From Mortierella sp. BCC40632 (lineage: Eukaryota; Mortierellomycota; Mortierellomycetes; Mortierellales; Mortierellaceae), in the NCBI GenBank assembly GCA_011634665.1, contig WAEK01000002.1, positions 2,438,501-2,502,500 of the forward strand: DNA of 64,000 bases. Reading direction: 5' to 3'. The translations under genes were made by a program, and so were the position numbers. This document shows, in pieces, positions 30,824-55,691 of this stretch; the first letter of the stretch is position 1; each line of letters opens with the position of its first letter. The notes below the pieces were generated by a model. It was not told where the DNA came from, ran no database searches, and saw only the letters and a list, made by a program, of their open reading frames with translations.

Positions 30824-31006
30824 TGCAACAGTCAGAGGCCAGGGAGTCTTTGGTTTGGGCAGTTTATTGCTAAAGATTAAAGTAATGAGAAAGCTAACTA
30901 TTTATACAAGTGGTTTGGTGGCAAATGGAAGGGGGCGCGGCAGTGGTGGCAACTGGACAGTCACAAATAGTGGCAAAGGGCGCAGCTTGAAGAGGACACT
31001 GTCGCA
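30824..31006 (-). repeat. Element B copy 1, 3' LTR
   Basis: 183 bp, TG...CA ends when read on the minus strand. Looks identical to the partner LTR at 35857-36039. Confidence 0.95.
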
Positions 31007-31024
31007 CCTTCCCCTTTTAAAAAT

Positions 31025-33695
31025 TTAGGTCGTGTTTCTGCTTGTACTCGTCCACAGTTTCCTGGCAATGTAAGATCCTTTACTTTTTTCCCATGTTGCC
31101 TCGTCTCGAGAGTAGCCCTTCCATAAAATAAGGAACTGATGCTGCCGTCGATAGTACCGATAGTCCAGAATACTGTCTACTTCAAACTCTTCTTCTCCAT
31201 CGATGATTTCAGGCTCTGGTTCTGAATGTACTGTTGTCCGAGGGCCGAGTGATTCTGGCGACTCTTCATAGTGTCGGAAACGATCCACATGGAACACGTC
31301 GTGTATTTTCATTGTCGGAGGTAATTCAACTTTGAAGGTGACAGGGGACAATTGCTGAAGGAGTGTGTAGGGTCCAATGAATCTCGGCTTCAGTTTATCT
31401 GATGGTCTGTTTTGGTCTGCTGGGATAGTGATATGTTCCGCGTTGAGCAAGACTTTGTCGCCTTCTTTGAAGCTGTGCTCGATCCTATGTTTGTCTGCGT
31501 TCCAAGTCTGCCTTTCCTGTGCGAGTCGAATAGAATCCTGGGCCTCCTTGAGTATCCTGCTCTGGTCGCTTACAAAACTTTCAACCTTGGGAGCTTTAGA
31601 CGGTTGGGGTTGGAGTAGAGCGGATGGGATACGGGGATGGTAGCCCATGTTCAAAAAAGAAGGGAGAGTAACCAGTTGTTGGGTTGACCGAGTTGTTGTA
31701 TCCAAATTCGAGTGAAGGTAATGAAAGATCCCAGTTTGTCTGTTGTTGATCTATGACAGACCGGAGCATCGTTGTGAGAGTTTGGATTGCGCGTTCTGAT
31801 TGTCCATCTGTTTGGGGGTGGTGTGCAGTTGACATGGCTAGTCTTGTGTCCATTAGTCGATGTAACTCCTGCCAGAACTGACTAGTAAACTTTGTATCCC
31901 GATCTGACACAATAGTTGTTGGCATTCCATGAAGTCGGAAGACATTTTTGAAGAAGCAATGGGCCACGTCAACAGCTGTGTCAGTTGTTCTACTTGGTGC
32001 AAAGTGGGCCTGCTTTTGATAGTTTGTCGACAAAAACTGTGATTGCATCGAATCTCTCTCTGTTCGTGGTAATTGAACGACAAAATCCATTGTTACTGTT
32101 TCCCATCGCTGATCTGGGATTGGAAGTGGATGGAGGAGTCCTGTTGGTGCACGATTGCTATGTTTGTTCCTTTGGCAACTCTCACAAGTTCTGACGTACG
32201 TCCTGATATCATTGACTATCTGTGGCCAGAATGCAAAGCGTCTCAAGTTGTCGTAGGTTTTATCGAATCCCAAGTGTCCTGCTATGGCTGAGTCGTGTGC
32301 ATCATGGATAAGTGAGTGGCGGATGTCAGCATTCCTGGGGATACAAATTACTGATTTGCCTCGTCGTAGTACGTGGAGTAGGCCATCGAATATAGCATAT
32401 CCTTGAGGTGGTTGTCCTTTCATGCAGCTGTAATAAATAGGCCATAAACGGCTGTCGTCTCTGTAGCTAAGGATGAGTCGTTTTCGAAGATCGCGGTCCA
32501 GAGCTATTTCCATGGAATTAAAATCGACAGGTTGGGGTAGGGAGTGGTCAGGTCGGCGGGAGAGAGCGTCTGATACGATGTTTTCCGATCCTTTCTTGTA
32601 CTTGAAGGTGAAGTCGTACTCCTGAAGGAGTTCCATCCAACGAGCTTGGCGACGGGTGAGCTTCGGTTGTGTAGGAAAGTGTCGTAGGGTAGCATGATCG
32701 GTGTATACAATGAAATGTGTTCCATCGAGATAGTATCGCCATGTTTTCAGGGCATGTACAACTGCCAACAGTTCCTGCTCATGTGTTGGATAGTTCCTTT
32801 CTGCTGAGTTCATTTTGCGAGACGTGAAGGCGACTGGTCGTGACTCTCCATTTTTGTCTATCTGAAATAGGACAGCTCCCACAGCAAATCCAGATGCATC
32901 TGTCTCCACGGATGTAGTCAATTCAGGGTCAAATATCCTGAGGACTGGTGCTTCACTAACAGCTTTTTTGAGGGCGATAAAGGCTGACTCATGGCTGTCA
33001 TTCCATTCGAAGGGGACGTCGTCTCCTAAGAGAGATGTCAGGGGCAGAGCTATCTGAGCAAAGTTGTTGACATAGTTATGGTAGAACTGAGCGAGGCCGA
33101 TGAACTGTTGAACTTCCTTTTGCTTTGTTGGTCGAGGCCATTCTCTGATAGCTTTGACGAGTCCAGCGTTTGTTTGAATGCCATCCTTGGTGAGAATGTG
33201 TCCCAAAACTCCGTTTGTTGTTGTAGAAATGAACATTTGCTGAGCTTTGCGTAGAGGCCGTGCTTCCTGAAGAGAGAGAGAACTGTTCGTAGATGGTCCA
33301 GGTGTTCTTTCTTGGATTTAGAGTAGATTAGCACGTCGTCTAAGTAAGCTACAACAATTTCGTCCAAGACAGGGTTCAAGACGGTGCGCATCATTGAAGA
33401 GAAGGAAGCTGGGGCGTTTGTCAGACCAAAAGGAACAACATTAAATTCATAATGTCCATATCGGCAACGGAAGGCTGTTTTGTGGGTATGCGGTTCGTAG
33501 ACTCGTTGTTGATGGTATCCTGATAAGAGGTCGAGTTTCGAGAAATACTTTGGCACCTCTGAATCTGTCAATCAACTCGTCAATTCGAGGCAGAGGGTGG
33601 CGGTTCTTTTGGTGATTCGGTTGAGACCTCTGTAATCCCACACACATTCTGAGGGTTCCTTCCTTTTTTGCGAACGAATAGGACGGGAGCGCCAT
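31025..33695 (-). CDS. Element B copy 1 pol: RT, RNase H, integrase, chromodomain (frameshifted)
   Basis: Read on the minus strand with several frame changes. [14 protein letters not shown] and the YLDD box in [14 protein letters not shown]. RNase [15 protein letters not shown] and [11 protein letters not shown]. Integrase: the zinc finger with [18 protein letters not shown] and CESCQRNKH, then [21 protein letters not shown] and a catalytic Glu in [11 protein letters not shown]. The C terminus has [11 protein letters not shown] and a chromodomain ([32 protein letters not shown]). Frame breaks lie mostly in A or T runs, and copy 2 is open at several of the same places, which points to homopolymer indels rather than slow decay. 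Confidence 0.88.
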
Positions 33696-33741
33696 AGGGT
33701 GATGTGCTAGGCTTAATGAACCCTTTTTTTCAACAGGTCGT

Positions 33742-34488
33742 CTAACTGCTTTTTAGTTCATCAAGTTCAGCGATTGAAAGTCGAATGACAGGTCGGACAG
33801 GTGGATCGGCGGTAGGGTCGGTCTCAATTCGCATTGCATCTCCTCTGTCTGGTGGGAGTCCATCAGGGAGAGAGTCGGGAAATACATCAGGGAACTCTTC
33901 CATAACTATTTTTCGGATTTCAGGGTCAGCATTTTCCAAGGGGTTGGTGACAGGCTTGACATTTCCTTCTTTTGAGTAGGGCAATAAAGACTTCACTACC
34001 AGGAAGGGCGGCGATGGTGTTGAAGTGCATGTGGCTAAGGAGGAGTCCACCAGAGGTTGTCGTTACTGAAGTGGGTTTGAAGCCGCGACATGTCCAGTGA
34101 ACTGTCTTTCCGTTGTGATCAAAAAGACTAGTTTGTTCGTCTGCCAGTTGATATTCGGGTTGATGTCAGTGAGCCAGGGTTTACCGAGGATGATGTCGTA
34201 TTTTTGGAGGTCATAAGCGATAGTGTCTACCGTGTCAGTGTAATTATCGCGTGCAAGTGTAATGGTTGCCGTGTGGGATGTCGTAGATGAAGAGCCGTTA
34301 GGGAGGAGGACTGGGATGGGGTTGCACGACTTTACGGGGATCGAGTGTTGGGATAAAAATCGTTTGCTGATAACATTCATTTCAGCCCCGCCATCGATTA
34401 AAATCTTTGCAGGGTGGTTGTTGACTGCGCCGATGAAAGTAAGGAGTCGTTGTTGAGCCTTTGCAATAGTGAAGCTATGAAGACCCAA
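33742..34488 (-). CDS. Element B copy 1 aspartic protease region (frameshifted)
   Basis: Aspartic protease domain between gag and RT: the active-site loop reads [12 protein letters not shown], with Gly-Gly in place of the common Ser/Thr-Gly after Asp, followed by a conserved DIILGKPWL near the second beta-sheet. The downstream linker [20 protein letters not shown] is the usual approach to gypsy RT. A frame change separates the two parts near 34000-34130. Confidence 0.8.
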
Positions 34489-34814
34489 TCCTTTCTTTTT
34501 TCTTCGGTTTTGTGTGTTGACTCTGGCGATGGGTCTAGCTGTAATTCAGGAGCAGGTGGGTCCAGGTCCACTTTGTCACTAATACAAGCCTTCTCCTCAG
34601 TCTTTGACGACGTTGGCATTGGTTCATGGATGTTTGTGTGGGCCTTGGTTGGGTCGTGAGTATTATTGTCATTATTTTTCTGAGGAGTGGACGAAGTAGA
34701 GTTGAATACTTTTTTTTATTTTTATTCGCTTGAGAACTTAACTCTGGTCTTGGAACACTCCCCTGATCCAGGTGGATAGGAGAGGGGTTTCAGCAACCAA
34801 GCCCTGGACTGATC

Positions 34815-35709
34815 TTAATTGCTGGGGCCTTTCCCCCTGCTCGGGCTGAGGGGAGAGGTCTCTTCGGATTCTATGTTGTTGAAACGTTTTCCACTGCGAC
34901 ATTCGTTAGCCATATGTCCATCCTTGCGGCAGCGGAAGCAAGCTCCTCGTTGGCGGAGTCGCTCGCGTTCTTGTGGCGATAGTTTGGGTGTTGATGAGGG
35001 GCGGGAAGAGAACTGTCGACGAAGGGCGTTAAGTTCGGTCCTGAGGTTATCAATTTCCATAGCCATCGGGTCTTTTTGAGTACTGTTGGAACCGGAGGGG
35101 AAGAGGGACCATGGTGATTATCGTGGGAGAAATAACTGGAGGGGTAGAGGATATCGTGGACGATTGTTGCCTCGGTGATTGCTTTTTCAAGGGTCTTGGG
35201 TTGGCGTAGTCGAACCTGTTTAGAAGTTTCTGGATCGAGGCCACGAAGAAACCGGAAAAGTGAAGCGTCCTTGTCTTCCTTTGGGATGAGACGAAGGTAT
35301 CTTCTGAACTCATTTGTATATTCAGCGACGCTTTTTTTTCCTTGGATCAGATTTTCCAACTTTTAAACGAGCAGCGTGGACAGCATCAGGAGGCGTGAAC
35401 CTTGCGATAAACGAAGCGCGGAAATTCTCCCAGGGGGTGTCAATCTTGATCTCAGATGTGCGCCACCAAGAGCGTGCGTCTTTTGTGAGGGCAAGTACAA
35501 AGTACCGAACCCAAAGATTCTTGGAGAGCTGTAAGACAGTGAAATACTCTTCATAGCTATCGGCAAAATTTAGACACTCTTCAGCATCGATAATGCCACT
35601 AAAAGGGCTCGGGCTTGGGCGGTTTGAGGACGGCGGCAAGGGTTCTTGCTTGATCATTCGCGGCCAATCCTTGAAGAATGGAGGCGGAGGCGTCGGCTTC
35701 TTGGCTCAT
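34815..35709 (-). CDS. Element B copy 1 gag (frameshifted)
   Basis: Start MSQEAD at 35709. Retrotransposon gag domain with [16 protein letters not shown] and [20 protein letters not shown], then a single CCHC knuckle [14 protein letters not shown] near the C terminus. An alternative upstream start lies in the primer-binding site itself (ATGGCAGCAAAGG), in a different frame from MSQEAD. Frame changes near 35335 and 35080 coincide with T/A runs. Confidence 0.82.
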
Positions 35710-35856
35710 GATGGAAAGGGAAGAAAAATAATCGGAAAAGGGGGTCTTGATCTTGGGGTACTTGGGTTGGAGTCGTGGGGGTCCGAGGGGTGGCAGGGTT
35801 CGAGGGGGAGTCGGTGTCAGAGGGGTCGGTGGAAAGAGATTGTACCTTTGCTGCCA

Positions 35857-36039
35857 TGCAACAGTCAGAGGCCAGGGAGTCTTTGGTTTGGGCAGTTTAT
35901 TGCTAAAGATTAAAGTAATGAGAAAGCTAACTATTTATACAAGTGGTTTGGTGGCAAATGGAAGGGGGCGCGGCAGTGGTGGCAACTGGACAGTCACAAA
36001 TAGTGGCAAAGGGCGCAGCTTGAAGAGGACACTGTCGCA
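35857..36039 (-). repeat. Element B copy 1, 5' LTR (promoter end)
   Basis: 183 bp. Carries TATAAATA and AATAAA on the minus strand only about 30 bp apart, so the R region must be very short. Confidence 0.95.
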
Positions 36040-36063
36040 CCAGAGGACCAGACCCTAGAGGAC

Positions 36064-37233
36064 ATGGACTGGCCGCTACTGCTCCCCGAATATGGCGACA
36101 CCGGTACACTCACGGACCCTGGGAAACACCACCTGCTGGAACTCCTAGAAGATGAAAAGAGGAACTTCAAATGGAACGAGGATGGAGTCTACCGGATGAT
36201 AGACGACGACCCGGTAGAGTACTTACCATTCGCACGACGAACCGACTACCTGGCCAAGCTTCATCATAGCGTAGGCCACCCGGGGACGCAAGGGATGTAC
36301 GACAGAGTGTGCGGACGCTACTGGTGGCCTAGTGTACGGAAGGACGTCGGCACGCTGTGCAGAGAGTGTAAGGAATGCCAACTGACGAGGGGAGGAGCAT
36401 CGACGACAGAACCGCTACACGCTTTCACGCCCGCCAAACCGTTCCAGAGATGGGGCATCGACTTTATTGGGAAGTGCCCCAAGACCCAGCAAGGGAACCA
36501 GTGGATCCTCGTAGCCGTCGACCATGCGACGGGTTGGACAATAGCCAAAGCCCTGCCAGACGCGACCGCTGAGACAGTTGCCGACTTTATCTACCAGGAA
36601 ATAGTCATCAACTTTGGATGCCCTGCTGAACTGGTGTCAGACCGTGGACCCCAGTTCATATCGGACACGCTACGCGCCTATCTCGAAAAGCTGAAAGTCA
36701 AGCATCGCCTCACGTCCGCCTATCACCCCCGCACGAATGGGAAAACCGAGCGCACCAATGGAATCTTAGGCACCGCACTCACCAAGTATGTGGGCAATCG
36801 GATGAAGCATAAATGGGATTTATTCCTTGACCAGGCCCTGCTAGCATGCAGAACCCGCAAGCACACCGTCTCCCAGAAGTCGCCTTTCTATCTAGTCTAC
36901 GGTATTGACCCGACCTTACCTGGAGACACGACTAGACCATACGTGTACGATGCGACGTCGTATGAGGAGGTGACAGCACAACAGGAGGCGAGATTGGAGA
37001 GGTTGCGGGGGAGGAGGGAAGGGAATGAGGAGCGGCAGACGGAGGCAGCGAGAGCAATGGAGCAAGTCTACAACGCTCGACACGACATCGACCCAGAAAA
37101 CCCTCGCCGCACGTACCAGGAGGGGGACTGGGTGCTGGTGAAGAATATCGCCAGGAAGAAGTTCGAGTACCCGTGGTATGGGCCGCTGAAGATTGATGCT
37201 ATCACTCCCTTTGGTGCGTACAAGTTGGTGTGG
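36064..37233 (+). CDS. Element A integrase, 5' part (interrupted by element C)
   Basis: Resumes element A after B1. HHCC zinc finger: HHSVGHPGTQGMYDRV ... CRECKECQ. Catalytic core: RWGIDFIGKCP, SDRGPQFISD and the Glu in TNGKTERTNGIL, giving the D,D-35-E triad. C-terminal GPY/F-like module YPWYGPLKIDAITPFGAYKL ends at 37233 where element C begins; the native sequence resumes at 45674 with PDGKSKLDLVHKDRLKMA. The stretch after KLVW up to 37326 is read into element C and is not native. Confidence 0.92.
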
Positions 37234-37605
37234 TGCGGCGTAGAGGACCAGCACAGGGGGAAAGAGCTCGCACTACTTGGCAGGCAGGTGTGTGAAACCT
37301 ATTGGGAAAGGGGATTGCCAGCATAGAAGAGGGAAACATAATGATCACGACGCATATCACCGTTCTATAGAGAGAGAACAAGGCAAGAGAAAAGACTCGC
37401 AAATGAACAATATCTAGCTACAGGATCGCACCCCCGGGGCGGGCGGACGAGTGGACCTGCTCCAGACGGTAAGTATTCACAAACGGATCGGGAAAATAAA
37501 AGGAAGAAAACAAAAACTGTCTTTATTGTCTGGTGTCGAGGGACACCATTTATACCCCCAGGCCCAGGGGCCAGAAGATCGCCCAGTCGTATTTACTACA
37601 CCACA
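37234..37605 (-). repeat. Element C 3' LTR (left)
   Basis: Ends TG...CA. Differs from the right copy mainly by A-run lengths near 37485-37515. Next to the polypurine tract, so the 3' LTR when read on the minus strand. Confidence 0.88.
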
Positions 37606-37683
37606 CCTCTCTGATCCCCGTGCCTCTTCGATACCCAACTGGATATCGCAGCTGCCAAGTGAGTAGCTCTACTCCTTTGAGCT

Positions 37684-37715
<32 letters not shown>

Positions 37716-37893
37716 GACATCTCCTTGCTCAAAGCACCACCAAGTGATCTTGACATCTGATTGGTCCACCATGCATCATTCGATTGACTCAATCTCATCT
37801 CGATGTTTCCCAAAAATAAAATAAAATAAGAGTTCGAACATGGGCTCGACAAGAAGACATCCCCTCTTCATCTTGTCCACTCGTTGTTGTCTG

Positions 37894-37929
<36 letters not shown>

Positions 37930-38006
37930 AACCTGCTCTTTGACCTGCCACTTCTGCTTTTGATACCCTTCCGGGAACGCCCTTTCACCGTTATCACCCA
38001 ACCACC
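37606..38006 (+). promoter_or_regulatory. Presumed promoter/leader of the antisense gene in element C
   Basis: Non-coding 400 bp between the left LTR and the plus-strand start codon, with two T homopolymers near 37688-37715 and 37897-37928. The start codon at 38007 has a strong context (CAACCACCATGCC). No TATA box is obvious. Confidence 0.35.
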
Positions 38007-39133
38007 ATGCCCCGCCCACGTTCAGGAAACACTCAGCAAGGTCGTGTTGGCGATGCGCCGAGCGCTGGGACTCTTCGACAGCACATCCCAAGGCCACCCT
38101 TAGGGGAGGTCAAATTAATATCCTGTTTAGCCCCCCCAGTGGTTGCGGAGGGATCATCCGAAGAACCTCCTCCATTCGATCAGCCGACTCAGATACTGGA
38201 GCGCGAACTGTGGTCGGATGCGTTTGTGGCCAATTCGGACGGCGAGGATGGCGATGAGTCTCCCGCGCACCGCAAAGGTGCAGACCAAGACAGGAAAAGA
38301 CTCTTTCTTGAGGACGCGACGGACGTTGTGCCTGCAACAGAGAGGCCTCTCATCGATCGGCATGTAGGGTCCGAGAGAGACGAGGAATCATCTATTCCGG
38401 GTGCAAGGGCTTCTGCGGATGCTGGATCTTCACAGCGTCCAAATGAGACGACTCGTGGGGCAAGTCCTTCGGGTCCAGGCACGAGGAGTTCTCCTGCGCT
38501 GAATTTGCAGGGGTCGGGTTCTCGCTCACAGGAGGGGGGAGTCCATCTGGTCTCGGTAAACGGAAACAACGAAGTGATGAGGAAGTTCCTGGCTGGTCCA
38601 GGAAGGCTCACGGGACCCCTTCGATGCTCGCTGATCTGTCGTCCTATCAGCAGTTGTTCCGGCGTTGGGAGCACCTAGAGCTACTCCGTTCCGAACTAGC
38701 GTTCAAGGCTCTCCATGATCCGACGATGTGCGCCAGACCCATAGATGTTCTTGGGGCCGCTCAAGACCTGGGCCGCTATACAATCACTGGCTTGGGGGTC
38801 AGCAGGACTTCCATGGATATCATCCATAGTCAATTTCTCTTGGAGAGCTCCCTTCGTTCCTTAGTCCAACATCAATCTGCGCTAATGCAACATGAGGCCG
38901 CCCTTCGCGAGAATGGACAACGTCTCGACGCCATAGGCCATAGCCTGGATCGACATAACCTGGAAGCCTGGAAACACGCCAAGCGTATCAGGCCTTATAT
39001 TCGTGAGGCCGAGGAGATGGAGGAGGAGAATCTTGAAGCCGCTCGAGGTGGAGAAACTGATGAGGATGAACCAGAAGAGGATCAAGATGGAACGCACGGC
39101 AGAAATATGTGAAATGGGGAAACCAAGGTTGAA

Positions 39134-39170
<37 letters not shown>

Positions 39171-42100
39171 TTTTTTTTTTTTTTTTTTTTTTGAGATGAT
39201 CATGGTCGCCACAGGGAATAGGGGAAGGGTGAAAGGAAAAGGACAAGGACGAGGGGGAAAGGACAGGGAAGAAGAACAAATGGAAGGAGTCAAAGAGAAA
39301 GGACAAAATAAAGATAAATAATAATAATAACAAAAAACTGCTTTGCAAACTGCGGGCACGAGGATCTCCTCCCTGCTCCCTTCTAGTCGATCCGTTCATT
39401 TACTGCAACAGTCAGAGGCCAGGGAGTCTTTGGTTTGGGCAGTTTATTGCTAAAGATTAAAGTAATGAGAAAGCTAACTATTTATACAAGTGGTTTGGTG
39501 GCAAATGGAAGGGGGCGCGGCAGTGGTGGCAACTGGACAGTCACAAATAGTGGCAAAGGGCGCAGCTTGAAGAGGACACTGTCGCACCTTCCCCTTTTAA
39601 AAATTTAGGTCGTGTTTCTGCTTGTACTCGTCCACAGTTTCCTGGCAATGTGTAAGATCCTTTACTTTTTCCCATGTTGCCTCGTCTCGAGAGTAGCCCT
39701 TCCATAAAATAAGGAACTGATGCTGCCGTCGATAGTACCGATAGTCCAGAATACTGTCTACTTCAAACTCTTCTTCTCCATCGATGATTTCAGGCTCTGG
39801 TTCTGAATGTACTGTTGTCCGAGGGCCGAGTGATTCTGGCGACTCTTCATAGTGTCGGAAACGATCCACATGGAACACGTCGTGTATTTTCATTGTCGGA
39901 GGTAATTCAACTTTGAAGGTGACAGGGGACAATTGCTGAAGGAGTGTGTAGGGTCCAATGAATCTCGGCTTCAGTTTATCTGATGGTCTGTTTTGGTCTG
40001 CTGGGATAGTGATATGTTCCGCGTTGAGCAAGACTTTGTCGCCTTCTTTGAAGCTGTGCTCGATCCTATGTTTGTCTGCGTTCCAAGTCTGCCTTTCCTG
40101 TGCGAGTCGAATAGAATCCTGGGCCTCCTTGAGTATCCTGCTCTGGTCGCTTACAAAACTTTCAACCTTGGGAGCTTTAGACGGTTGGGGTTGGAGTAGA
40201 GCGGATGGGATACGGGGATGGTAGCCCATGTTCAAAAAGAAGGGAGAGTAACCAGTTGTTGGGTTGACCGAGTTGTTGTATCCAAATTCGAGTGAAGGTA
40301 ATGAAAGATCCCAGTTTGTCTGTTGTTGATCTATGACAGACCGGAGCATCGTTGTGAGAGTTTGGATTGCGCGTTCTGATTGTCCATCTGTTTGGGGGTG
40401 GTGTGCAGTTGACATGGCTAGTCTTGTGTCCATTAGTCGATGTAACTCCTGCCAGAACTGACTAGTAAACTTTGTATCCCGATCTGACACAATAGTTGTT
40501 GGCATTCCATGAAGTCGGAAGACATTTTTGAAGAAGCAATGGGCCACGTCAACAGCTGTGTCAGTTGTTCTACTTGGTGCAAAGTGGGCCTGCTTTGATA
40601 GTTTGTCGACAAAAACTGTGATTGCATCGAATCCTCTCTCTGTTCGTGGTAATTGAACGACAAAATCCATTGTTACTGTTTCCCATCGCTGATCTGGGAT
40701 TGGAAGTGGATGGAGGAGTCCTGTTGGTGCACGATTGCTATGTTTGTTCCTTTGGCAACTCTCACAAGTTCTGACGTACGTCCTGATATCATTGACTATC
40801 TGTGGCCAGAATGCAAAGCGTCTCAAGTTGTCGTAGGTTTTATCGAATCCCAAGTGTCCTGCTATGGCTGAGTCGTGTGCATCATGGATAAGTGAGTGGC
40901 GGATGTCAGCATTCCTGGGGATACAAATTACTGATTTGCCTCGTCGTAGTACGTGGAGTAGGCCATCGAATATAGCATATCCTTGAGGTGGTTGTCCTTT
41001 CATGCAGCTGTAATAAATAGGCCATAAACGGCTGTCGTCTCTGTAGCTAAGGATGAGTCGTTTTCGAAGATCGCGGTCCAGAGCTATTTCCATGGAATTA
41101 AAATCGACAGGTTGGGGTAGGGAGTGGTCAGGTCGGCGGGGAGAGCGTCTGATACGATGTTTTCCGATCCTTTCTTGTACTTGAAGGTGAAGTCGTACTC
41201 CTGAAGGAGTTCCATCCAACGAGCTTGGCGACGGGTGAGCTTCGGTTGTGTAGGAAAGTGTCGTAGGGTAGCATGATCGGTGTATACAATGAAATGTGTT
41301 CCATCGAGATAGTATCGCCATGTTTTCAGGGCATGTACAACTGCCAACAGTTCCTGCTCATGTGTTGGATAGTTCCTTTCTGCTGAGTTCATTTTGCGAG
41401 ACGTGAAGGCGACTGGTCGTGACTCTCCATTTTTGTCTATCTGAAATAGGACAGCTCCCACAGCAAATCCAGATGCATCTGTCTCCACGGATGTAGTCAA
41501 TTCAGGGTCAAATATCCTGAGGACTGGTGCTTCACTAACAGCTTTTTTTTGAGGGCGATAAAGGCTGACTCATGGCTGTCATTCCATTCGAAGGGGACGT
41601 CGTCTCCTAAGAGAGATGTCAGGGGCAGAGCTATCTGAGCAAAGTTGTTGACATAGTTATGGTAGAACTGAGCGAGGCCGATGAACTGTTGAACTTCCTT
41701 TTTGCTTTGTTGGTCGAGGCCATTCTCTGATAGCTTTGACGAGTCCAGCGTTTGTTTGAATGCCATCCTTGGTGAGAATGTGTCCCAAAAACTCCGTTTG
41801 TTGTTGTAGAAATGAACATTTGCTGAGCTTTGCGTAGAGGCCGTGCTTCCTGAAAGAGAGAGAGAACTGTTCGTAGATGGTCCAGGTGTTCTTTCTTGGA
41901 TTTAGAGTAGATTAGCACGTCGTCTAAGTAAGCTACAACAATTTCGTCCAAGACAGGGTTCAAGACGGTGCGCATCATTGAAGAGAAGGAAGCTGGGGCG
42001 TTTGTCAGACCAAAAGGAACAACATTAAATTCATAATGTCCATATCGGCAACGGAAGGCTGTTTTGTGGGTATGCGGTTCGTAGACTCGTTGTTGATGGT

Positions 42101-45100
42101 ATCCTGATAAGAGGTCGAGTTTCGAGAAATACTTGGCACCTCTGAATCTGTCAATCAACTCGTCAATTCGAGGCAGAGGGTGGCGGTTCTTTTGGTGATT
42201 CGGTTGAGACCTCTGTAATCCCACACATTCTGAGGGTTCCTTCCTTTTTGCGAACGAATAGGACGGGAGCGCCATAGGGTGATGTGCTAGGCTTAATGAA
42301 CCCTTTTTTCAACAGGTCGTCTAACTGCTTTTTAGTTCATCAAGTTCAGCGATTGAAAGTCGAATGACAGGTCGGACAGGTGGATCGGCGGTAGGGTCGG
42401 TCTCAATTCGCATTGCATCTCCTCTGTCTGGTGGGAGTCCATCGGGGGGGAGAGTCGGGAAATACATCAGGGAACTCTTCCATAACTATTTTTCGGATTT
42501 CAGGGTCAGCATTTTCCAAGGGGTTGGTGACAGGCTTGACATTTCCTTCTTTGAGTAGGGCAATAAAGACTTCACTACCAGGAAGGGCGGCGATGGTGTT
42601 GAAGTGCATGTGGCTAAGGAGGAGTCCACCAGAGGTTGTCGTTACTGAAGTGGGTTTGAAGCCGCGACATGTCCAGTGAACTGTCTTTCCGTTGTGATCA
42701 AAGACTAGTTTGTTCGTCTGCCAGTTGATATTCGGGTTGATGTCAGTGAGCCAGGGTTTACCGAGGATGATGTCGTATTTTTGGAGGTCATAAGCGATAG
42801 TGTCTACCGTGTCAGTGTAATTATCGCGTGCAAGTGTAATGGTTGCCGTGTGGGATGTCGTAGATGAAGAGCCGTTAGGGAGGAGGACTGGGATGGGGTT
42901 GCACGACTTTACGGGGATCGAGTGTTGGGATAAAAATCGTTTGCTGATAACATTCATTTCAGCCCCGCCATCGATTAAAAATCTTTGCAGGGTGGTTGTT
43001 GACTGCGCCGATGAAAGTAAGGAGTCGTTGTTGAGCCTTTGCAATAGTGAAGCTATGAAGACCCAATCCTTTCTTTTTCTTCGGTTTTGTGTGTTGACTC
43101 TGGCGATGGGTCTAGCTGTAATTCAGGAGCAGGTGGGTCCAGGTCCACTTTGTCACTAATACAAGCCTTCTCCTCAGTCTTTGACGACGTTGGCATTGGT
43201 TCATGGATGTTTGTGTGGGCCTTGGTTGGGTCGTGAGTATTATTGTCATTATTTTTCTGAGGAGTGGACGAAGTAGAGTTGAATACTTTTTTATTTTTAT
43301 TCGCTTGAGAACTTAACTCTGGTCTTGGAACACTCCCCTGATCCAGGTGGATAGGAGAGGGGTTTCAGCAACTAAGCCCTGGACTGATCTTAATTGCTGG
43401 GGCCTTTTCCCTGCTCGGGCTGAGGGGGAGAGGTCTCTTCGGATTCTATGTTGTTGAAACGTTTTCCACTGCGACATTCGTTAGCCATATGTCCATCCTT
43501 GCGGCAGCGGAAGCAAGCTCCTCGTTGGCGGAGTCGCTCGCGTTCTTGTGGCGATAGTTTGGGTGTTGATGAGGGGCGGGAAGAGAACTGTCGACGAAGG
43601 GCGTTAAGTTCGGTCCTGAGGTTATCAATTTCCATAGCCATCGGGTCTTTTTGAGTACTGTTGGAACCGGAGGGGGAAGAGGGACCATGGTGATTATCGT
43701 GGGAGAAATAACTGGAGGGGTAGAGGATATCGTGGACGATTGTTGCCTCGGTGATTGCTTTTTCAAGGGTCTTGGGTTGGCGTAGTCGAACCTGTTTAAG
43801 TTTCTGGATCGAGGCCACGAAGAAACCGGAAAAGTGAAGCGTCCTTGTCTTCCTTTGGGATGAGACGAAGGTATCTTCTGAACTCATTTGTATATTCAGC
43901 GACGCCTCTTTTTCCTTGGATCAGATTTTCCAACTTTAAACGAGCAGCGTGGACAGCATCAGGAGGCGTGAACCTTCGATAAACGAAGCGCGGAAATTCT
44001 CCCAGGGGGTGTCAATCTTGATCTCAGATGTGCGCCACCAAGAGCGTGCGTCTTTTGTGAGGGGCAAGTACAAAGTACCGAACCCAAAGATTCTTGGAGA
44101 GCTGTAAGACAGTGAAATACTCTTCATAGCTATCGGCAAAATTTAGACACTCTTCAGCATCGATAATGCCACTAAAGGGCTCGGGCTTGGGCGGTTTGAG
44201 GACGGCGGCAAGGGTTCTTGCTTGATCATTCGCGGCCAATCCTTGAAGAATGGAGGCGGAGGCGTCGGCTTCTTGGCTCATGATGGAAAGGGAAGAAAAA
44301 TAATCGGAAAGGGGGTCTTGATCTTGGGGTACTTGGGTTGGAGTCGTGGGGGTCCGAGGGGTGGCAGGGTTCGAGGGGAGTCGGTGTCAGAGGGGTCGGT
44401 GGAAAAGATTGTACCTTTGCTGCCATGCAACAGTCAGAGGCCAGGGAGTCTTTGGTTTGGGCAGTTTATTGCTAAAATTAAAAGTAATGAGAAAGCTAAC
44501 TATTTATACAAGTGGTTTGGTGGCAAATGGAAGGGGGCGCGGCAGTGGTGGCAACTGGACAGTCACAAATAGTGGCAAAGGGCGCAGCTTGAAGAGGACA
44601 CTGTCGCATTTACTTTATCACCCACCAACGGCGAGCCGTCCGTCCTCAACCTGAACAACCGTTACTTAATTTCCGGAGACGACTTCCTGCCTTTTCTACA
44701 AAAGGAATCGAGGGAGTGTGGATTGGGAAACTGTTCGGGGTCATCTTAAGCTTTGAGCCGGCAAATATTGAACATCAGGGACCTTTGGCCGTAGAAAGAA
44801 TAGAGGGAAGAGAGCAGTTGGTGATCCATGGCAACCCGTGGCTTTGTCATTTCAAAGTGGTAACGAAAACACTTGAACCGACAACTAAACTCCGGCTGAA
44901 AATATTTTACGGATCTGAGGGTGTGGAGGGGAGGCATGCCATCAAAAGGACAAATATTTTGAAAGGGTATGTCGTGGGTGCAAGTGTGAAATGGAGCAGG
45001 GTCTGGCGAATCGCTTCTGATGGAGATAACTTGTGGTGGTGGAGGGTATCGCCCATCGATGGCTCAGCGTGTGTCAGAAAGGTCGAAAAAGAAAGTAATG

Positions 45101-45304
45101 TGATGAAAAAAAAAGAGAAAAAAAGGGAAAAGAAAAGGTACAAAATATGAAAACAACAAGAACAGTGAAAGCAACGTCTTGATCGGTTGTTTGTTTTATC
45201 TAGGGGAGAGTGCAATCATTGAAGATGACCTTCCGCTAGAACCTCTTATTGAGTATCCGACAATGGTTGCCCAGGTTCTCCACCATTTTTTCTGTGCGGC
45301 GTAG
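38007..45304 (+). CDS. Antisense cargo gene of element C, unknown function (split by element B copy 2)
   Basis: Exon 1 starts at 38007 and reads about 350 codons: a disordered acidic/Ser-Pro region, then a helical part with [20 protein letters not shown] and [19 protein letters not shown], ending very acidic. One frame change is needed, at the G6 run 38534-38539. A possible donor at 39047 (CGAG|GTGGAG) has the right phase. Exon 2 is 39387-39403 plus 44614-45094 once element B and one TTTAC are removed; it is open for 165 codons across that junction ([20 protein letters not shown], then a Trp-rich part [19 protein letters not shown]). A phase-1 intron 45095-45203 leads to exon 3, ending [12 protein letters not shown] with the stop TAG at 45302-45304, inside the LTR. 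I recognise no family. Phase agreement across two junctions argues that it is a real spliced gene. Confidence 0.6.
39404..39586 (-). repeat. Element B copy 2, 3' LTR
   Basis: 183 bp, matching copy 1 LTRs by eye. Polypurine tract AAAAGGGGAAGG adjoins on the internal side. Confidence 0.95.
39597..41321 (-). CDS. Element B copy 2 integrase with chromodomain, intact frame
   Basis: The longest uninterrupted pol segment of element B. It opens in a partly out-of-frame RNase H tail, then runs in one frame through the integrase zinc finger (CESCQRNKH), core ([25 protein letters not shown]), the GPY/F module and a full chromodomain ending [19 protein letters not shown], stop at 39597. Chromodomains of this type bind methylated histone H3 in related elements and steer integration to heterochromatin; here that role is inferred from the domain. 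Confidence 0.92.
   Translation of the reverse strand: MAILSRWNTFHCIHRSCYPTTLSYTTEAHPSPSSLDGTPSGVRLHLQVQERIGKHRIRRSPRRPDHSLPQPVDFNSMEIALDRDLRKRLILSYRDDSRLWPIYYSCMKGQPPQGYAIFDGLLHVLRRGKSVICIPRNADIRHSLIHDAHDSAIAGHLGFDKTYDNLRRFAFWPQIVNDIRTYVRTCESCQRNKHSNRAPTGLLHPLPIPDQRWETVTMDFVVQLPRTERGFDAITVFVDKLSKQAHFAPSRTTDTAVDVAHCFFKNVFRLHGMPTTIVSDRDTKFTSQFWQELHRLMDTRLAMSTAHHPQTDGQSERAIQTLTTMLRSVIDQQQTNWDLSLPSLEFGYNNSVNPTTGYSPFFLNMGYHPRIPSALLQPQPSKAPKVESFVSDQSRILKEAQDSIRLAQERQTWNADKHRIEHSFKEGDKVLLNAEHITIPADQNRPSDKLKPRFIGPYTLLQQLSPVTFKVELPPTMKIHDVFHVDRFRHYEESPESLGPRTTVHSEPEPEIIDGEEEFEVDSILDYRYYRRQHQFLILWKGYSRDEATWEKVKDLTHCQETVDEYKQKHDLNF
41084..42275 (-). CDS. Element B copy 2 RT and RNase H (frameshifted)
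   Basis: RT from [17 protein letters not shown] through [12 protein letters not shown] and [14 protein letters not shown], RNase H from [16 protein letters not shown] through [11 protein letters not shown]. Frame changes near 41800, 41545 and 41140. The T-run at 41545 is longer than its counterpart in copy 1, where RNase H stays in frame. Confidence 0.85.
42403..43044 (-). CDS. Element B copy 2 aspartic protease
   Basis: Same domain as in copy 1 ([18 protein letters not shown]) but in frame through [15 protein letters not shown] and the linker to [10 protein letters not shown], showing that the break in copy 1 near 34000-34130 is an indel. Frame is lost again near 42440 in a G run. Confidence 0.82.
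   Translation of the reverse strand: MQRLNNDSLLSSAQSTTTLQRFLIDGGAEMNVISKRFLSQHSIPVKSCNPIPVLLPNGSSSTTSHTATITLARDNYTDTVDTIAYDLQKYDIILGKPWLTDINPNINWQTNKLVFDHNGKTVHWTCRGFKPTSVTTTSGGLLLSHMHFNTIAALPGSEVFIALLKEGNVKPVTNPLENADPEIRKIVMEEFPDVFPDSPPRWTPTRQRRCNAN
43390..44281 (-). CDS. Element B copy 2 gag (frameshifted)
   Basis: Start MSQEAD at 44281. Same gag domain and CCHC knuckle ([14 protein letters not shown]) as copy 1. Frame changes at different positions from copy 1 (near 44060, 43975 and 43795), including a local deletion that drops a few bases before KQVRLRQPK. Confidence 0.82.
44426..44608 (-). repeat. Element B copy 2, 5' LTR
   Basis: 183 bp. Differs from its partner by a small compensating change near 44474-44483 (AAAATTAAAAG in place of AAGATTAAAG). 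Followed internally by the primer-binding site TGGCAGCAAAGGTACA. Confidence 0.95.
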
Positions 45305-45669
45305 AGGACCAGCACAGGGGGAAAGAGCTCGCACTACTTGGCAGGCAGGTGTGTGAAACCTATTGGGAAAGGGGATTGCCAGCATAGAAGAGGGAAACAT
45401 AATGATCACGACGCATATCACCGTTCTATAGAGAGAGAACAAGGCAAGAGAAAAGACTCGCAAATGAACAATATCTAGCTACAGGATCGCACCCCCGGGG
45501 CGGGCGGACGAGTGGACCTGCTCCAGACGGTAAGTATTCACAAACGGATCGGGAAAAAAAAAAGGAAGAAAACAAAAAAACTGTCTTTATTGTCTGGTGT
45601 CGAGGGACACCATTTATACCCCCAGGCCCAGGGGCCAGAAGATCGCCCAGTCGTATTTACTACACCACA
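45295..45669 (-). repeat. Element C 5' LTR (right)
   Basis: 375 bp. Minus-strand TATAAAT (45612-45618) and AATAAA downstream. Its first ten plus-strand bases provide the stop codon of the cargo gene. Confidence 0.88.
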
Positions 45670-45673
45670 GTGG

Positions 45674-50514: not shown

Positions 50515-52590
50515 ATGGCGTTTGACCGTGATGTCAAAGAAGAGATGGAGGACCTCACCATTTCACCAACTGCCACCACCTCAACCACACTCCCTGTTCT
50601 ATCTCAGATGACCGGAGAGCCGTCCGAAATGAAAGATGGAGGTGGTTCCTCCATCTCGGAGGAGGTCTCCGATGTTGGCCCGGTGCCTGAACCACTCTAC
50701 CACAAACCTCCCACCAGGCAGTTTGTACTAATCATGATCGCGTAAGTTGAGCTCCTCGTCCCTCTCCTCTTTCCAATTAGCCAAATAAATGCCGGCCGTT
50801 TATTCTTCAACCCTAACCTTCCTCTGCGTTCTGTACTCATGCTCACTCCTTGATTTTTTTTTTATTTACTTGATAGGCTGTCGCTATGCGTCTTCCTCGC
50901 CAGTTTGGACCAGATCATCGTTTCAACCTCTATCCCTGCTATTACACGTGAATATAATGCACTCACAGATATCTCCTGGCTCGGGACGGCTTACATGTTG
51001 ACGGCTACGGCCTTCCAGCCCTTGTAAGTTGATTTAAATTTTTTTCTTCAGGTTGAACTATGCAAATCCCATTGAAATCATGTTTGCTGTCTTGTCCTAA
51101 TTCGTTTTTTTTTTTTTTTTTTTTTTTTTTTTTCGGATCCTTTTTCCATATCTCACCCCTTGCCCTTATCCTCACCCTCACCCTCGTCCTCGCCCTGACT
51201 TTCTTACCCCTTTCTTCTGGGTGCCGAAAGATACGGAAAAGTCTCGGATATTTTTGGTCGCAAGTCGACAATGCTCTTTGCCAACTTTATGTTTCTAGTT
51301 GGCTCTGCGATTGCTGGATGGGCCACTTCCATGACCATGCTGATTGTCGGACGTGGTGTTGCTGGTGTTGGCGCAGGAGGTCTGATGGCCATGGTTTTGA
51401 TCATTCTGTCAGATATGCTGGACATGCGAGAACGCGGCAAGTACATTGGGTTCATTGGTGCCGTCTTTTCGTTCTCTTCGGTGATCGGACCTCTGCTCGG
51501 TGGCGCGTTCACGGATCATGTCACTTGGAGATGGTCGTTCTGGATCAACTTGCCCTTTGGTGCTATCTCAATTCTATTTATCGCTTTCAATCTTAACCTG
51601 CCGACCCCCGAGGGCACACTCACCGACAAACTCAAGCGTATTGATTACTTTGGTTCAGTCCTTTTGTTGGGAGCTGTGATCCTTATTCTCCTGCCTCTGA
51701 GCTGGGGTGGCGCAAAGTACGCGTGGAACTCGGGAATCATCATTGGACTTCTCTGTGCAGGAATTGCTGTCACGATCATCTTTATCCTTGTTGAGTGGAA
51801 GGTGCCGCGCGAGCCTATCCTGCCTATCCATTTGTTCAAGATCCGTAACCTGTGGTCGACCTACGGTGGTCTCTTCTTCAGTGGCATGTCCTTCTTTGGT
51901 ATTCTCTTTTATCTCCCAGTCTATTTCCAGGTCGTCAAGGGTGAATCAGCCACCGTCGGAGGTCTCGAGACCATCCCATTCGTGTTCGGTATTGTCCTTA
52001 CCTCGATTTCGTCTGGTATCTGGGTCCTCAAGAAGGGCACCTATGCGTTCTTCCCTGCCACTGGTAATGCTCTTTTTATCCTCGGATCTGCCCTGTGTAT
52101 TCTATTCAAACAGGACACACCCCGAGTTGCAACCATTTTTGTGCTTCTGATCTGTGGCATGAGTATGGGCTTCTCGATGCAAGCCTCCACCCTTGCTGTC
52201 CAGGTAGCTGTCAAGCCCAAGTACATGGCCACTGTGACGAGTCTGGTCCAGTTCGTTCGAAACCTGGGCAGTGTCTTTGGTGTGGCGATTGTTGGTACTA
52301 TCTTCAACAACAAACTCGACGGTGCTCTTGAGGCGGCCTTCCCATCTGATCCAAGCATTCTTCGGGTCACCAACGATTACAGTATCATTCATCAGTATCC
52401 ACCAGACCAGACCAAGACTATTTACGACTGTTTTGTCCTTGCGCTCCACTATGCATTCTATGCCTGCGTGGCTTTCTGTGGAATGGCGTTCATCCTGAGT
52501 TGTTTTATCCAGCACAAAGAGCTCAAGACGAATGCCAACCAGCGTAGAGAGCAAGAGAAGCACACGCCACCAGCAATTGATATGGCATAA
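50515..52590 (+). CDS. MFS drug:H+ antiporter, 14-transmembrane (DHA2) type
   Basis: Plasma-membrane or vacuolar exporter of toxic compounds or metabolites. Exons 50515-50741, 50877-51023 and 51231-52590 join in phase to 577 aa, the usual DHA2 length. An acidic cytoplasmic N terminus is followed by LDQIIVSTSIPAITREY (motif D1 region with the first helix), WLGTAYMLTATAFQPLYGKV, the loop 2-3 motif GKVSDIFGRK, the motif-B-like LIVGRGVAGVGAGG in helix 4, motif C GAVFSFSSVIGPLLGGA in helix 5 and WRWSFWINLPFG. Fourteen hydrophobic segments can be counted. Substrate is not predictable. It sits alone with no biosynthetic cluster next to it, so a general detoxification role is more likely than a pathway-specific one. 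Confidence 0.9.
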
Positions 52591-53447: not shown

Positions 53448-55691
53448 ATGACAGTGGGCGCATCTGCGTCTTCGTCGCCAACTATGTTCCCACCGTCTCG
53501 CTCCCAATCTCCATCCCACCTTTCTGTTGAGATCTCCAGTCCGGCAGCCCCTGGCTCCAGCACCACTCAGACAATGAATAACAACCGCTGCAAGACCAAG
53601 AATCTGTTTGAGATTCCAGAATTGCTCCATCGAATCTGTATATTCCTCTCTGCCCATGACCTGACCCATTGCGTTCTCGTCTGCCGGTCTTGGCATGCGC
53701 TCTGTACTCCATTGCTTTGGTCCTCCATCGAGGTTTTGAACAGCACCAAGTACTATCAGTTCCTGGCCCCTCAGACCTCGATCGATGCTCTCCCCAGATA
53801 TGGCCGGCATATCCGATCCATCACCACACTATACTATAACCTCTTGGCGCCGCTGTTGAACCAGAATGTCAATTGTCCCAATTTGACCCATCTAGTCTTT
53901 CCAAAGAGTTGTCGGTTCACGGATCCGCCTTTGCCCGCTGGGATGCACTCTGACTACAAGAGCCACGACAGTGGGAGCAAATACAAGAGTGGCGATGCCA
54001 GCGACGACCTCGACAGAGCAGAACAACAACCCCAATCAATTGAACAACTTGTCGGAACCAATCCTACCACAAATGCGGGCAATAGTATCGAGTCCACTTT
54101 GACAGCCATGACGGGGATTCAGCAGGATGCACATGTCCCACATTTGTACCAACCATATCGGGGTCCTACTGAAATCCGCGCCAGGAGTGCCTCTGGTCTC
54201 TTCAAGGAAACAATGTTGATCGAAATAATGCGGAAGAGTCCTCAGCTCCGGGTTCTGACCATGGTTGGATTTCCCTTTGATAATGATGGTCTTATTGCCA
54301 GTGTGGCCGAGCAGCTTGCACGGGGGAGGTTAAGAAAGTTGGAACTTATGAACCTCCATTACTGTGAAGTTAAGGCCAGTTCTCTGAAACGACTTTTGGA
54401 CAGCTGCGCCCCTACTCTTGAAGAACTTGGCTTGTCGATCTCGTTTGGAAGTCTGGCGCAAGTAGAGTCGAGTCCTTCCACAACATCAGCAGAGGAGATT
54501 GTACAGGATTCAATGATAGTCGAGCCCAATGAAGTTAGCAGTAGCAGTGGTGCCTCGCCCAACCAAGATTATGGTCATACCAGCCCACCACTTTATCCCA
54601 ACAAACGACAACGAACACAGCGGGATTTACTCGGCGGTCCAAAGCCTTGGGGGATGAGGAAATTGACTCTCAAGGGTAACCTGAGTGGTCAAGGTCCTCT
54701 GATTTGGCTGCCTCTTCTTCGACAGTGTACTCAAGTCCAGGTCATCAGTGTCGACATTTACGCAAACTCTGCTCTCGAGTCTCTTGCACAAACCATTCAG
54801 GACCACTGCCCGTTAGCGAACGAGCTAACAATTCGATGCATGAAAGGAAGTCCTCAGGAAGACAGTCGGATAGCAGCCTTGATCGAAGCGAGCTCTGCTT
54901 CTTGGAAGCACCTCTCCTTGTCTTTTTTTCACGGATGTGGTCCCTTATCTGCAGCGGCATTGTTGCGCCACTCAGCCACACTAGAGACCTTGATTCTCGA
55001 GGAATGTGATGGCGTTGGAAGTGAGGATATTCAGATGATTCTTTGCACCTGTCCAAACTTAAAGACCTTCAAGGCAATGACCTCTAACGGAATGGAGTTC
55101 TCAAGCACAGTCTACCTGGACGCCAACGAGATGATCGACTCGCCCTGGATCTGTCGGTCACTCGAGAACTTGAAGGTAGTGATCACTGGAATTGCTAGAC
55201 CTGATCTGAAGACTGACCAGTACGGAAACGCATTGACAGGACCATTGCATGATGGTACAATTCAAGGATATGACCTTCAGAGGATTGTCTACCAGCAACT
55301 GGGCTCATTACCAAAGCTGCAGGTGCTCTGGCTTGGCCATGACAAACAGGATCTTGACGACGAAGGGAATTACTATCCGACAGCGACCGAGGGTCAATGG
55401 AGGTACATTGACCCGGATGAGCAGTTCGAATGCCTAGAGTTTTCTCTCAAAAGTGGACTGGGTCTCTTGAGTGGCCTCAAAGATCTACGGGAGTTAAACA
55501 TTGATCGGCTAAGAACACGGGTCGGGCTCTCTGAGGTTCAGTGGATGAGCGACCATTGGCCCAGGCTCGAGTCTATCATTGGTCTTGTCGTCCATGGTGA
55601 AAAGCCCCCGAAGCACGTCCAATGGCTCTACGAACATAGGTCCGATATCGCGCTCCCACCAGTTCTTGGGAGCTTTACCACTGCATTCTAG
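53448..55691 (+). CDS. F-box and leucine-rich-repeat protein
   Basis: Likely substrate receptor of an SCF ubiquitin ligase. Single exon, 747 aa. F-box at residues ~50-90: EIPELLHRICIFLSAHDLTH followed by VCRSWHALCTPLLW, the usual Leu-Pro-like start, central helix and C-V-C-x-x-W block. Downstream are irregular leucine-rich repeats interrupted by two disordered Ser/Asn-rich segments (about 175-230 and 345-395): PQLRVLTMVGFPF, RKLELMNLHYCEV, LEELGLSISF, LETLILEECDGVG and LKTFKAMTSNG. The pattern matches the large family of Mortierella-type F-box proteins rather than a named orthologue. The stop codon is only 24 bp from the converging ABC gene. Confidence 0.85.
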   Translation: MTVGASASSSPTMFPPSRSQSPSHLSVEISSPAAPGSSTTQTMNNNRCKTKNLFEIPELLHRICIFLSAHDLTHCVLVCRSWHALCTPLLWSSIEVLNSTKYYQFLAPQTSIDALPRYGRHIRSITTLYYNLLAPLLNQNVNCPNLTHLVFPKSCRFTDPPLPAGMHSDYKSHDSGSKYKSGDASDDLDRAEQQPQSIEQLVGTNPTTNAGNSIESTLTAMTGIQQDAHVPHLYQPYRGPTEIRARSASGLFKETMLIEIMRKSPQLRVLTMVGFPFDNDGLIASVAEQLARGRLRKLELMNLHYCEVKASSLKRLLDSCAPTLEELGLSISFGSLAQVESSPSTTSAEEIVQDSMIVEPNEVSSSSGASPNQDYGHTSPPLYPNKRQRTQRDLLGGPKPWGMRKLTLKGNLSGQGPLIWLPLLRQCTQVQVISVDIYANSALESLAQTIQDHCPLANELTIRCMKGSPQEDSRIAALIEASSASWKHLSLSFFHGCGPLSAAALLRHSATLETLILEECDGVGSEDIQMILCTCPNLKTFKAMTSNGMEFSSTVYLDANEMIDSPWICRSLENLKVVITGIARPDLKTDQYGNALTGPLHDGTIQGYDLQRIVYQQLGSLPKLQVLWLGHDKQDLDDEGNYYPTATEGQWRYIDPDEQFECLEFSLKSGLGLLSGLKDLRELNIDRLRTRVGLSEVQWMSDHWPRLESIIGLVVHGEKPPKHVQWLYEHRSDIALPPVLGSFTTAF

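Follow-up and report, generated by a model that had tools for sequence, protein, structure and literature searches.

Does the LTR element at 37234-45669 carry an intron-containing, host-like gene antisense to its own promoter, and whose enzymes move it? The element, which we call C, lies in the window (the whole stretch of DNA analysed here, 64,000 nucleotides), and an initial annotation had proposed an answer to both questions: a spliced plus-strand gene survives inside C since its introns are invisible to the LTR-driven RNA, and another element supplies the machinery. We examined these proposals in turn, starting from the landmarks of the element.

37230-37233, no strand: left target-site duplication (TSD), GTGG
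37234-45669, LTR sense minus: element C, whole, including the nested element B
37234-37605, minus: left LTR, the 3' LTR in C's own sense, from LTR alignment
37522-37527, plus coordinates of a minus-strand signal: AATAAA in the left LTR
37549-37554, plus coordinates of a minus-strand signal: TATAAA in the left LTR
37606-37690, minus: polypurine tract and 3' UTR end, common to gypsy elements K and J
39404-44608, minus: element B, a chromodomain-type gypsy inserted in C and not part of it, TSD TTTAC
45267-45285, minus: primer-binding site, by complementarity to tRNA-Ala(AGC); 19 nt identical in K
45295-45669, minus: right LTR, the 5' LTR in C's own sense, from LTR alignment
45670-45673, no strand: right TSD, GTGG

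The structural description of C held up well. Its LTRs are direct repeats with TG..CA ends, the GTGG duplication is present on both sides, TATAAA and AATAAA are located on the minus strand of the left LTR, and the polypurine tract adjoins that LTR; the primer-binding site adjoins the right LTR across a 9-bp spacer. Only the size had to be reassigned: without B, the whole element measures 3226 bp and its interior 2479 bp, so the ~3.2 kb previously given for the interior fits the complete element. A first alignment of the two LTRs gave 1 substitution and 3 gap columns, and a global alignment 6 substitutions and 3 gap columns, the higher count stemming from another placement of an A-rich run. Read in the minus sense, the C LTR has AATAAA only ~21 nt after the TATA box (37522-37554), and the LTR of J is similarly tight. 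On the plus strand, the C LTRs and two related LTR families share GGTAAGTATTCA or GGTAAGTGTTCA, a perfect form of a 5' splice site, which lies at approximately 37472-37483 and 45533-45544 in C.

We searched eight C copies for gag-pol by tblastn, using 167 queries that comprised the six-frame ORFs of at least 60 codons from J and K together with five gypsy proteins encoded in the window. No convincing match was found in these copies; the best E value, 0.003, arises from sequence at and beyond the K LTR end. The same queries recovered gypsy pol in other loci with E values down to 8.9e-152, the best row being a gypsy nested in J. The description of C as an LTR element lacking reverse transcriptase and gag-pol is thus upheld in the eight copies.

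C is not a solitary structure. Within the genome searched (49.9 Mb, 62 contigs), interior searches and the loci fetched gave at least 14 interior-bearing copies: that of the window, L009 to L017, a single copy split by an insertion over L020/L021, and partial copies on C23, C30 and C38, those on C30 and C38 known from match coordinates alone. At least 40 LTR matches were scored of 106 candidates, which makes the LTR count a lower bound. Eight uninterrupted two-LTR copies measure 3145-3233 bp, and a 4-bp TSD flanks ten of 11 two-LTR copies and all nine single LTRs examined. LTR pairs differ by 0-1 substitutions in seven of the 11 copies, so the family, judged by this measure, is young; by global alignment the remaining pairs differ by 4 (L017), 5 (L010), 6 (window) and 14 (L011) substitutions. 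The last of these, L011:4715-7859, combines the most diverged LTR pair with the absence of a TSD, the sole such case among the 11, and may have arisen by recombination between copies. Older relics are found as well. L029 matches the interior end of C at 76% and runs on into LTR sequence at 73%, and L031 retains 148 bp of the antisense ORF described below, also at 76%. A second, partial LTR match (91%) lies ~360 bp from the single LTR L027; of L032, 4.5 kb were covered. At L030:2568-2987, small pieces of C LTR in one orientation stand beside interior pieces in the opposite one, with matches of 31-60 nt at 100% among them, in a rearranged and deletion-ridden fragment.

The signals for reverse transcription point to the partner. 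Beside the right LTR, the minus strand reads TGGTGGAGAACCTGGGCAA, the first 18 nt of which are complementary to the 3' end of tRNA-Ala(AGC), including the CCA that is added to tRNA 3' ends. All three genome matches to the primer-site complement that we tested with ARAGORN are tRNA-Ala(AGC) genes. The primer site recurs in element K (locus L036), where it is identical at 19 of 19 positions and adjoins the 5' LTR on its inner side; in element J (L034/L035) it falls within a 32-nt stretch at 91%. At the opposite end, the polypurine tract and 3' UTR end of C match those of K (86% over 88 nt, of which 19 nt are LTR) and of J (78% over 106 nt), and each match extends into the LTR start. K belongs to a Ty3/gypsy family, with Pfam matches for gag, zinc knuckle, RNase H and integrase and a gypsy RT match; its LTRs, ~712 bp long, are 99% identical to each other and its TSD is CTCA (4 bp). 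J, a more distant relative, has gag-pol matches, LTRs that are 98% identical and the 4-bp TSD GGGT. In both elements gag-pol runs in the sense predicted by primer site and polypurine tract, which is the minus sense of C. An autonomous relative whose gag-pol runs with plus-sense LTRs would have spoken against the initial proposal; K and J run in the minus sense instead.

Since the K copy that we read is split into several ORFs and the J copy is interrupted by another gypsy, we regard the two as the partner family and not as a working helper. Outside C, the genome contains ten K-like polypurine places (86-90%), and for five of them the primer-site motif lies at a distance of 6.18-6.26 kb in matching orientation. 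Beyond their ends, the 372-bp LTR of C and the LTR of K cannot be aligned; deletion alone therefore does not derive C from K. We also considered as a source of the autonomous partner two other LTR families, seen at L013:9330-9730 and L022:1-300 and 72-80% similar to parts of the C LTR. The L013 type (at least 40 matches scored of 103 candidates, 41 matches given) and the L022 type (two identical places) were set aside: in the one stretch read, L033, we saw split single LTRs and no pol match.

Taken together, C is a non-autonomous LTR retrotransposon, most likely mobilised in trans by K/J-type elements, with which it has primer site, polypurine end and 4-bp TSDs in common. Our overall reading, in which C also has a single-exon antisense ORF and no spliced host gene, has a probability of about 85%. 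That C moves by another element's enzymes, as first proposed, is very probable from the same shared features. Transcription of C would begin in the LTR at 45295-45669 and run along the minus strand; Ty3/gypsy proteins of the K/J type would reverse-transcribe the RNA, using the tRNA-Ala(AGC) primer site and the polypurine tract, and would then integrate the copy with 4-bp duplications. C would share with its helper the cis signals and little else. Counting against this reading are the LTRs of C and K that differ beyond their ends, the split K and interrupted J copies, the missing TSD of L011, and an antisense ORF that is full length in only one copy, L015, and gives no signal of selection.

We then turned to the spliced gene of the initial annotation, whose proposed exon 2-3 junction lies to the right of B.

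44593-45147, plus: frame holding the proposed exon 2, 185 codons between stop codons, its left end inside B's LTR
45095-45203, plus: A-rich segment proposed as intron, with donor and acceptor motifs
45203-45301, plus: proposed exon 3, 33 codons, not accepted here as an exon

The proposal was of an intron-containing, host-derived gene whose introns outlast the RNA stage by lying antisense. The motifs behind it are real. A GTAATG donor at 45095 and a TATCTAG acceptor ending at 45203 are present in the window, where the frame is open for 168 codons up to the GT and continues in phase with 33 codons past the AG; C does have a long antisense ORF, at another place. The wider family does not bear the gene out. 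The frame preceding the donor is long and in phase in one of 11 copies, being open for 36-70 codons in the other ten, with the caveat that assembly indels in repeats may contribute to this difference. In L015, the longest frame of the exon-2 region (167 codons) was reached by 39 of 2000 shuffles. Twelve of the 33 exon-3 codons touch the antisense primer site (45267-45285), the 9-bp spacer or the LTR. The older relic L029 has 31 nt in place of ~178 nt, so that ~147 nt, including the proposed intron segment, are absent, a gap that could be a deletion in the relic. DNA and protein searches of this genome returned no host parent for the exon-2/3 region. We rejected the two-exon gene on the in-phase long exon being confined to one copy of 11, the overlap of exon 3 with primer site and LTR, and the lack of a host parent in this genome, and we regard the model behind it as highly improbable.

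The plus-strand coding potential of C lies instead near the left LTR, in an ORF missed in the first annotation.

38007-38678, plus: first frame of ORF1 in the window copy, 223 aa
38624-39112, plus: second frame of ORF1 in the window copy, 162 aa

In copy L015, ORF1 is a single exon of 367 codons with an ATG start, on the plus strand, antisense to C and next to the sense 3' LTR. The window copy has it split between two overlapping frames that together correspond to the L015 ORF. The claim of a plus-strand ORF antisense to the element's promoter therefore survives as single-exon ORF1, and not as the exon-2/3 gene. None of 2000 dinucleotide shuffles of the L015 region reached 367 codons, L015 having been picked as the best of nine aligned copies for this test; GC content at its three codon positions is 0.66/0.50/0.51. 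ORF1 is uninterrupted over residues 1-367 in L015, 1-349 in L011 and 1-329 in the C38 copy, and is shorter or broken in the remaining copies of this genome.

Nine copies show 27 indel events in ORF1 versus 4 substitution columns, and across the whole element indels are about as frequent as substitutions. Unlike ORF1, the unique 747-codon F-box gene in the same window is unbroken. Some frame breaks in ORF1 may be assembly errors in repeats, and for this reason ORF1 cannot be judged copy by copy. Before gap-adjacent and homopolymer columns were filtered out, ORF1 looked far less variable than its neighbours, a contrast on which we build nothing; after their removal, variable columns numbered 3 of 937 in ORF1, 1 of 312 in the exon-2 region and 7 of 535 in the LTRs (ORF1 versus each of the two LTRs, Fisher p 0.11 and 0.055). 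The seven ORF1 variants among 12 copies, 1 synonymous and 6 non-synonymous versus 2 and 5 expected, gave no signal of selection. Compared with ORF1, relic L031 carries 15, 13 and 8 changes at codon positions 3, 1 and 2, and among its differing codons the residue is kept in 8 and changed in 19. ORF1 looks as if it was once coding, and we treat it as a putative gene that, we infer, is or was expressed.

ORF1 had no Pfam match, and the whole protein had no homologue at E <= 0.01 among the 7994 candidates listed from a protein collection, nor did residues 200-345 at E <= 1 among 240 candidates. As a control, the F-box gene of the window retrieved 21 proteins from this collection, 17 with Mortierella-type genus names and 4 without an organism; Mortierellaceae are thus represented, and these matches also suggest that the host itself is probably of this family. 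Against the PDB, ORF1 gave four weak matches (E 0.014-0.92), the best two carrying DpHF names, which we take to denote designed helical filaments. DNA and protein searches of the genome itself for a host parent returned C copies, a few decayed fragments and, for ORF1, one marginal match (E 0.57) inside a 1560-codon frame on C1.

These searches bear on the idea that ORF1 was captured from the host and that its parent gene has since been lost or has diverged past recognition. Its length, beyond that of all 2000 shuffles, would suit a cellular origin, as would a pyrimidine-rich stretch and an ACCATG context at its start, noted by eye. With no parent in the genome and no homologue in a collection that includes Mortierellaceae, we consider capture unlikely, and the description of the cargo as host-like is not supported. 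Somewhat better placed, with odds still short of even, is a refinement of our preferred reading that concerns the origin of ORF1: C may descend from a full-sized gypsy with an antisense ORF by its 3' LTR, having lost gag-pol and kept the signals and the ORF. C still has the primer site and the 3' UTR end, and ORF1 sits antisense beside the sense 3' LTR, the usual site of such ORFs according to PMC7264820. Running counter to this descent, the genome yielded no gag-pol element bearing an ORF1 relative, and K and J have no ORF1 match.

Within our preferred reading, C resembles non-autonomous elements of the TRIM and LARD type: it has LTRs, primer site, polypurine tract, TSDs and many copies, lacks gag-pol, and has a gag-pol-encoding partner that shares its cis signals. 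It differs from them in its long antisense ORF and in an LTR that departs from its partner's beyond the ends; at ~3.2 kb with 372-bp LTRs, it presumably fits neither size class neatly. Pairs of non-autonomous and autonomous LTR elements have been described in fungi (PMC3248453).

ORF1 has counterparts in position. ORFs that lie antisense in the stretch from pol to the 3' LTR are described for Grande, RIRE2, Retand and PvRetro13, and one for Boty of Botrytis and Sclerotinia (PMC7264820); the Boty ORF is named brtn (also in PMC8365987). Like ORF1, these aORF-3R (maize Grande, rice RIRE2, Silene Retand, Botrytis Boty brtn) lie antisense beside the 3' LTR and lack known cellular relatives, and PMC7264820 gives their function as unknown and reports no database relatives. 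Gag-pol is present in most known forms of aORF-3R families, whereas in C the antisense ORF is the sole candidate gene and has no gag-pol upstream of it in the same element. Some Retand elements are non-autonomous, and Retand clusters carry antisense ORFs (PMC11963269). We found no sequence relation between ORF1 and the aORF-3R proteins, as gauged by Pfam; having no Pfam match at all, ORF1 has none to TRP28.

Gene-capturing LTR elements, among them maize Bs1, likewise hold non-retroviral coding sequence between their LTRs, but the interior of C has no cellular parent that we could find in its own genome. Captured genes usually follow the element's own sense (PMC7264820), and LTR elements of bdelloids capture other extra ORFs (PMC5408684). 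LTR elements of the non-autonomous kind are already on record, as are antisense ORFs next to a 3' LTR (PMC7264820), and the suggestion of an undescribed class is not supported; our search of one open-licence literature collection turned up no description of an element of this kind from Mortierella. C is unusual in having no candidate gene other than an antisense ORF and in an LTR distinct from that of its partner.

C and K would be a parasite and its partner among the LTR elements of an early-diverging fungus, a young pair in which a minimal set of common signals (primer site, polypurine/3' UTR end and LTR ends) stands out between otherwise unrelated LTRs. The pair also sharpens a question that extends from plants to fungi, namely why long antisense ORFs beside the 3' LTR persist, here in an element without sense genes. 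One answer would be that C, a gypsy parasite, keeps a functional ORF1 under its own promoter near the 3' LTR. If so, the ORF1 protein would serve C, for example by regulating or capturing the machinery of its K-type partner, and C would then be an LTR element reduced to a single gene, an antisense one; we rate this a long shot, below gene capture.

The surroundings of C add a further layer of nesting.

27356 (gag), 29604 (RT) and 36064-37326 (integrase): gypsy element A
51271-52587: MFS transporter, an ordinary host gene right of the nest
53448-55688: F-box protein gene right of the nest, 747 codons, host gene
57797-59146: ABC protein, an ordinary host gene right of the nest

A second copy of the B family, inserted in element A, occupies 31000-36060; its pol stretches are 95-99% identical to B, and a B-type LTR match lies at 35858-36040. 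Element A thus bears two nests, this B-family copy and C with B inside. To the right, the F-box protein aligns along its entire length, at 78% identity, with a protein from Lunasporangiospora selenospora (Mortierellaceae).
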